64,000 bases of DNA, from NCBI GenBank assembly GCA_021324165.1, contig JAJPJR010000079.1, forward strand, positions 1 through 64,000. The letters are read 5' to 3'. Shown here in pieces: positions 15,820 to 17,432 of this stretch. Positions within the stretch are counted from its first letter, which is position 1. Each line of letters starts with the position of its first letter. The translations under genes and the position numbers were made by a program. This DNA comes from Armatimonadota bacterium. GTDB lineage: Bacteria > Armatimonadota > Fimbriimonadia > Fimbriimonadales > ATM1. The notes below the pieces were generated by a model. That model had not been told where the DNA came from, ran no database searches, and saw nothing but the letters and a program-made list of their open reading frames with translations.

Positions 15820-16488
15820 TCAGCCGATGGAAGGAGAGTGCATCTGATTTGGCTCGGTTTTCGGCGCCTGTTTGCCCGTAAGCTGCGCGTACTTAATCAG
15901 ATGCCCTTTGCGGAAACCGTCCCACGTAACCAGCCGAATGAGCGTCGGCGCATCCCGCTCGATATCTTCTGCTGTCAGTTTCCAATGCGACACCTCATCA
16001 ATCGGCTTGCCGTTCGACCGCTTCAAGTGATCAATATGCCACGCGACCTGCAACAAATTGACTAACAGCATCGGCGTTCCAAAAACTGCGCCCATCTTCG
16101 AATCGGTGAGCGTGGGCGTCCCATAAATGGAAGTCTGCCAACCTTGGTCATTCCTTATCACTAACCTGCAGCTGCCCTGAGCGCCGCCCCCTTGAACGCG
16201 GGTTTCCTCTTGCACAACCTTCCGGTACCCCGCGATTCGAGGCTCGATCAAGAGCCGATACGCTTCCCGGAGCGACTCGAGGGTTACGCCTGTAAGCTCC
16301 TTCTCTTCAGGCATCATGTAGTCGAACAGAAGGTCTGTGTCGCCGAACAGTTCCGCATAGGCGATTCTGCGCGCGTGATCTGCCATCGTCACCGGACGGA
16401 AGTGAAGATAAATTGCGATTGATCCCGCAGCTGTGACCTTCAGCGCCAACGCAATAAGAGGATTTCTCCTCAAGCCCATTTTAAGCAC
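15820..16488 (-). CDS. Membrane-anchored or exported protein of unknown function
   Basis: 222 residues from a GTG; the ATG three codons later (16479) is equally possible. A hydrophobic N-terminal segment (PLIALALKVTAAGSIAIYLHF) is followed by a soluble domain of about 180 residues with ARRIAYAELFGDTDLLFDYMMPEEKEL and a middle beta-rich part. The composition suggests a helical NTF2-like or DUF-type domain, but I cannot place it. TAAAAT lies 3 bases before the GTG and 12 before the ATG, a possible -10 element. The pseudogene at 16573 lies upstream with an 84-base gap. Confidence 0.6.
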   Translation of the reverse strand: MLKMGLRRNPLIALALKVTAAGSIAIYLHFRPVTMADHARRIAYAELFGDTDLLFDYMMPEEKELTGVTLESLREAYRLLIEPRIAGYRKVVQEETRVQGGGAQGSCRLVIRNDQGWQTSIYGTPTLTDSKMGAVFGTPMLLVNLLQVAWHIDHLKRSNGKPIDEVSHWKLTAEDIERDAPTLIRLVTWDGFRKGHLIKYAQLTGKQAPKTEPNQMHSPSIG

Positions 16489-16572
16489 GTGATTTTAGTT
16501 TGGAAGCGAAACGGGGATTTAACACACGCCGTGCCCTTGAGCAATGCGGCAGTTGAAGGTCAAACTGTTTCA

Positions 16573-17118
16573 TCACCAAAAATCGCAGCGATTCCAATTT
16601 CCCATTTTCACAAACTTGCTAAAATCTCCGTCCAGGTATACGGCCATCAACCTGTTATGCACAAAAGGCGATGCCTGGGCGGCAGGCGGATTGTGGTTGG
16701 GGTCAACGAAAAGCACCGTATGCTCGCCGACTTCTTTTGAATACTTTTGCCATTCCTGCTGCAGGTACAGCGGATCGCGGAGCGTTGGAATCATGTAAGT
16801 ATAAGCGGCATCCAGGCCGGGTTCAGGTGCGAATCCTCCACATTGGAAAACCGATCTCGGAACCCCCATTTCGAAATACAACACTTTGGTGTGAAACGGC
16901 AGACCCATTGCACAGGCATCTCAATATGCCGGGCCGCCGTCGTAGCGCTCGCGATACAACGCGGTCGCCACCCACAACTGATGCAAGTTCGATGCGCACA
17001 CCGACTCTTTCGCCGCCTCTTTTGCGCGCATGATCACAGGCGTCATCACCGCAGCAAGCACCACCAATATGCTGCACACAACCACCAACTCGGTCAGCGT
17101 ATATCCTCTTTGTTTCAT
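16573..17118 (-). pseudogene. Prepilin-like gene interrupted by one in-frame TGA
   Basis: Both halves lie in the same frame. Codons from 17118 encode a classical prepilin start, MKQRG|YTLTELVVVCSILVVLAAV, through YRERYDGGPAY; then a TGA at 16921-16923; then, without any shift, DACAMGLPFHTKVLYFEMG and on to a stop at 16573, ending in HNRLMAVYLDGDFSKFVK. The C-terminal part is typical of Armatimonadota/Planctomycete prepilins (a late DG motif). A single base change of GGA (Gly) to TGA would explain it, giving YGDxxAMGLP. Read as one protein it would be 181 residues. Its ATG overlaps the stop of the upstream gene (ATGA). It is either a true nonsense allele or an assembly error. Confidence 0.8.
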
Positions 17119-17432
17119 CGCTTCACCTGAACGAAGGACGGGATCTTGTCCACGTCCGTTTGCATCGCTGCGATCCTCAAGCCGCCTTCGAACAACAGAT
17201 AACGCGGAGCGAACACAGCATTAAGCGGCGGATCGTTGCGGGCATCGAATCCGCTCGAAAATTTTGACTCAAGCCCGGGCTTCCAGATGGCCGATCGAAC
17301 GTCGGGGTTGGAAAGAAGCACAAACAGCGCAACAATGATAGCGGCGCAACCTAACCCCCAGAGCACCAGAAGGCGCCCCTCGGACAGCGATTCCCGAGGT
17401 GCATCCTCCCGCCCTAAATCCTGCCTGGTCAC
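17115..17432 (-). CDS. Small bitopic membrane protein linked to the prepilin-like gene
   Basis: 105 residues with one membrane helix (LLVLWGLGCAAIIVALFVLL, about 22-41) and a C-terminal extracytoplasmic part of about 60 residues (DPPLNAVFAPRYLLFEGGLRIAAMQ). I recognise no family. It overlaps the following prepilin-like gene by four bases (ATGA) and so was probably made together with it. It lies downstream of the OmpM-like porin but beyond that gene's terminator. Confidence 0.6.
   Translation of the reverse strand: MTRQDLGREDAPRESLSEGRLLVLWGLGCAAIIVALFVLLSNPDVRSAIWKPGLESKFSSGFDARNDPPLNAVFAPRYLLFEGGLRIAAMQTDVDKIPSFVQVKR

Follow-up and report, generated by a model that had tools for sequence, protein, structure and literature searches.

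Type IV pilin-like and type II secretion pseudopilin-like proteins (PF07963) combine a prepilin motif with a long N-terminal helix and a C-terminal sheet. Bacterial selenoproteins of the UxxC/bSECIS type (thioredoxin/AhpC-like) feature an in-frame TGA, a Cys at +3, a hairpin with a G in its loop, which starts 16 nt downstream, and the machinery for selenocysteine (Sec) decoding. Recent nonsense pseudogenes, which arise in bacterial paralogous families, show one substitution, a frame intact apart from it, further family members disrupted in like manner, and lost neighbors. The gene described here, located in a 64,000-nt stretch of DNA (the window) from an uncultured bacterium of the order Fimbriimonadales, resembles all three. 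It has the motif, helix and sheet of the first group, but differs from it in a globular part typical of a Fimbriimonadales family that carries MGLP and WW motifs, and in the TGA that interrupts it. The listed features of the selenoproteins are found as well, the hairpin being SECIS-like though not clearly beyond chance; in contrast to them, its family carries Gly with almost no Cys at the site, its fold is not a redox one and its SECIS score is weak. With the pseudogenes it shares every feature, and no differing one was found. A young nonsense mutation, one of the options offered by the initial annotation of this DNA, here placed in an operon that is decaying, fits best the glycine of the relatives, the rate of stops in the family and the erosion of the operon; we put its probability at about 0.7, and this weight, like those expressed in words for the other readings, is a judgement, not a computed value.

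The gene comprises 181 codons, read from 17118 down to 16573, and its translation, MKQRGYTLTELVVV...GGPAY*DACAMGLP...NRCDFW*, contains the TGA at codon 66 as its sole internal stop. The frame had been described as unbroken on either side of this codon, the two halves making one prepilin-like protein: translation, homologue alignment and PF07963 all confirm this, and add the strand, left unstated at the time, which is the minus one; the plus strand of the same interval translates into something unrelated to the pilin-like frame. The N-terminus matches the N-methylation motif at 25.5 bits, against a Pfam cut-off of 21.2, while the half following the stop aligns with homologues along its entire length and retains all strongly conserved residues (M71, G72, P74, W123, D139, G164 and G173), so that the two halves are a single gene rather than a chance pair. 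A model of the read-through product (mean pLDDT 88.9, pTM 0.80) features a helix at residues 8–58, the TGA position in the loop behind it, and a sheet in the second half; a Foldseek search of this model against the PDB gave no significant match, the best one, with an E-value of 0.94, being a PilA. A product ending at the TGA would be 65 residues long, predicted to contain the N-terminal membrane helix and to be devoid of the globular domain. The ATG at 16908 was considered as a point of internal restart and rejected: the MGLP that it opens is a motif found in the interior of the family's proteins, and a product begun there would have no helix. The features of the locus are collected in Table 1; an Rfam scan of the window returned two tRNAs only.

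Table 1. Features of the prepilin-like gene and of its surroundings (window coordinates)
Feature	Position	Strand	Evidence
Prepilin-like gene, 181 codons	16573..17118	-	Translation, PF07963, full-length homologues, read-through model
TGA in frame at codon 66, located in the loop behind the long N-terminal helix	16921..16923	-	Translation, homologue alignment, model
SECIS-like hairpin	16890..16914	-	Folding, comparison with control TGA genes
Upstream gene, remnant of a membrane redoxin, ATGA overlap	17115..17432	-	Comparison with operons of relatives
84-bp gap in place of the small Cys-rich gene of relatives	16489..16572	-	Operon comparison
Last cassette gene, 222 aa, without a Pfam family, frame still open	15820..16488	-	Operon comparison, Pfam

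The family pattern around the interrupted position is Y-G-x-x-x-M-G-L-P. A glycine had been expected at the TGA, and a comparison with orthologues proposed to look for it: the residue is indeed Gly in 50 of the 64 full-length homologues of the class-wide set and Cys in only one, the paralogue found in the same genome having Asp. Since Gly prevails, a one-base change is enough to explain the TGA. A single-base nonsense change of the Gly codon GGA yields TGA, and the kind of stop is thus uninformative. No homologue with a TGA at codon 66 was found among those examined in the class search (113 genomes, none of the same genus), and no relative in this set ends at the same point; similarly, no same-genus relative with the same TGA was found in the GTDB contig collection, where the only match, TGS_ARM1, concerned the neighboring SLH porin (49% identity). 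A recoded glycine, discarded already by the initial annotation, is rejected, because the family has no conserved TGA at the Gly position. Readthrough, whether leaky or regulated, in which a near-cognate tRNA would yield some full-length pilin, would agree with the preservation of the frame and of the conserved residues past the stop; it is nonetheless a very remote prospect, the stop being conserved in no relative examined.

Besides the TGA, the gene has acquired a Cys at position 69, which gives a U-x-x-C arrangement (U-D-A-C); a Cys at +3 is found in one of the 64 other homologues. Cys178, likewise unusual, is perhaps its disulphide partner. One homologue, in genome G023 (L048/L008, G023:C1:1195800), reads YCDSYCMGLP: one Cys coincides with the TGA site, another lies at +4, and the two might form a disulphide in the loop; no tRNA-Sec was detected in this genome.

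In relatives, the pilin gene is the second of a cassette of four, for which no published description was found. It is preceded by a redoxin-like membrane protein of roughly 190–213 residues with a CxxC, whose best Pfam match, PF08534, lies just under cut-off, and followed by a small secreted Cys-rich protein (83–116 aa) and by a protein of about 206–226 residues, homologous to the last cassette gene of the window (o222-type). The cassette was observed in relatives at L032, L033, L034, L037, L043, L045 and L046. In the window, the first gene encodes only 105 residues: the D-x-x-x-D-P of its membrane segment joins directly to LNAVFAPRYLLF, and about 90 residues, including the CxxC redox core, have been lost, with the membrane segment left at the N-terminus and the tail at the C-terminus. 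The deletion is in frame and preserves the ATGA by which the pilin gene starts within the stop of the upstream ORF. The coupling to an upstream partner, pointed out by the initial annotation, therefore holds as far as the overlap is concerned, but the partner is not intact, its redoxin core being gone when compared with relatives. Further downstream, no Cys-rich gene fits between the pilin gene and the last one. Beside the TGA, two of the four cassette genes are damaged or missing; this damage, brought out by comparison with relatives' operons and hidden from the initial annotation, is the strongest argument for decay. An in-frame deletion that keeps the ATGA could, on the other hand, also mark a streamlined, working operon.

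The state of the neighbors also bears on whether the T is real. The assembly is a draft of 83 contigs, and the damage to the pilin gene consists of a single base in an otherwise intact frame, as might result from a wrong consensus or from mixed strains in the assembly, the living gene having a sense codon. We consider this improbable: the neighboring deletion and the missing gene are not single-base errors, and single nonsense codons recur in the family, also in assemblies of few contigs (G004, about 20).

Such codons are found at other sites in 5 of the 104 other full-length members (about 5%), among those listed in the class search: L090, L137 and L139 are interrupted by a TAG, L130 and L131 by a TGA. 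One of the TGA cases lies in a genome with no detected tRNA-Sec (G065). Other members flagged for stops have only the terminal stop within the match. The occurrence of both TAG and TGA at this rate indicates that nonsense is common in the family and has no link to UGA decoding; these pilin-like genes often carry nonsense mutations, or else reflect mixed strains.

A rival reading that called for a direct test is that the TGA is a selenocysteine codon, decoded by SelB and tRNA-Sec with the aid of a downstream hairpin, the loop behind the helix then holding U-D-A-C as a redox pair. Selenocysteine had been dismissed too quickly: the genome contains a full decoding set, composed of a tRNA-Sec (80.2 bits; anticodon TCA by ARAGORN), SelA (399.7 bits), SelB (390 bits against a cut-off of 242) and SelD (369 bits against 125), along with thioredoxin-like genes having a TGA of the Sec type. 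A tRNA-Sec was also detected in 6 of the 7 other pilin-family genomes searched, the one without it being 73% complete. A search for the AhpC/TSA family found single-TGA thioredoxin-like genes in the genome itself, on contigs C39 and C33, and many in relatives. The former two, thioredoxin/AhpC-like, lie at C39:4195-4551 (L183) and C33:4770-5126 (L184), each with one in-frame TGA, in the contexts FWGFW-U-GPC and NPGFC-U-GYD. Judging from their sequences, both are probable selenoproteins, likely to be shortened in standard annotation. About 19 further genes of this kind were observed in relatives (L185-L202; G001-G006, G009), some with the context GSY-U-PPFR. Given the machinery and these genes, the organism very probably makes selenoproteins, reading some UGA codons as selenocysteine.

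No relevant papers on selenoproteins in Armatimonadota were found. SelD itself (C4:13178-14095, L069) is of the Cys form, with the motif ECAGCAAK. Formate dehydrogenase, examined as a Sec control, has no TGA, and no molybdopterin oxidoreductase with a TGA was found, molybdopterin enzymes being present on contigs C17 and C62; the Sec trait is nevertheless kept. In a 2006 survey, all Sec decoders without FdhA had a Sec-containing SelD (PMC1794560), a rule to which this lineage may be an exception.

At the pilin gene, the initial annotation had noticed no SECIS-like context. A hairpin is in fact present downstream of the UGA, UGUG-C-AAUGG-(GUCUG)-CCGUU-U-CACA, in the register of likely true elements, although not clearly beyond chance. 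Its apical loop, with G first and U second, spans nucleotides 20–24 from the U of UGA, starting 16 nt after the UGA, the same register as in many control TGA genes, and its score of -8.9 kcal/mol is to be compared with a median of -9.6 for 21 controls evaluated by a uniform hairpin score. The codon of the new Cys is also part of the lower stem. The same score is, however, reached by 4.5% of 1500 random TGAs in the window, by 11% of synonymous shuffles of the same peptide and, in register, by 3 of 49 MGLP homologues (6%). A covariance model of the lineage SECIS assigns the hairpin 2.9 bits, against 7.8–15 at 13 other places of the window; this model, derived from 19 control elements mainly of thioredoxin-like genes, is biased against other families. 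A simple fold z-score of the TGA region (-0.66) is uninformative. In the other two TGA-interrupted members of the family the hairpin score is zero. The hairpin is largely an incidental result of the conserved MGLP codons, together with the new Cys codon: as those codons build most of it, and shuffles and random TGAs match it, the signal for Sec at this TGA is suggestive, no more.

Selenocysteine at codon 66 thus keeps some weight from the machinery, backed by thioredoxin-like TGA genes that look genuine, in this genome and its relatives, from the register of the hairpin and from the new UxxC; the G023 homologue, with its Cys at the very site, also speaks in its favor. Most of the weight is lost to the glycine of the family, the base rate of nonsense and the operon, whose decay, together with the 5% of stops, accounts for the codon without Sec. 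The relatives do not have the Cys that such a site would suggest: a published filter requires at least 2 Cys homologues and more than 50% Cys/TGA pairs (PMC1088965), and the gene fails it, while rare selenoproteins arose mostly from Cys forms (PMC1794560). A literature search found no paper on a pilin-like selenoprotein. On the whole we hold this reading to be unlikely. Doubtful, too, is the specific form that it would take, a pilin-like surface subunit with Sec at a Gly site, born in one step from a nonsense change, the MGLP codons having pre-formed a hairpin usable by SelB.

A young nonsense mutation remains the preferred reading. According to it, a recent single substitution would have turned a Gly codon into TGA in a pilin-like subunit gene of the Fimbriimonadales family; translation would most likely stop after 65 residues, and no working subunit would be made. 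The change would be one step in the loss, in this lineage, of the conserved redoxin/pilin/Cys-rich/o222 operon, whose redoxin has been trimmed to its two termini and whose Cys-rich gene has disappeared. The stop itself, the Gly of the relatives, the gutted redoxin, the absence of the Cys-rich gene and the rate of nonsense in the family are shown directly, while the direction of the change at codon 66, its age and the non-functional nature of the product are what we infer; the retention of all conserved residues past the stop argues for a young mutation. As in recent pseudogenes, the disabling change is absent from the relatives examined, the rest of the gene is intact, and selection on the locus looks relaxed, the redoxin core being deleted and the Cys-rich gene absent. 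Against this reading stand the Sec decoding set of the genome, the undamaged frame past the stop, and the coincidence of a hairpin in SECIS register with a Cys at +3, both somewhat unusual.

As a broken gene, this one is ordinary. We know of no pilin-like selenoprotein; should the selenocysteine reading prove true, this would be the first known to us, and its Sec site would be one not derived from Cys. As it stands, the gene is of value mainly as a caution and a test case: even where the Sec machinery exists, plain nonsense can underlie an in-frame TGA that has a UxxC and a credible hairpin beside it, and it is the neighbors and the homologues, rather than the local sequence, that decide between the two.
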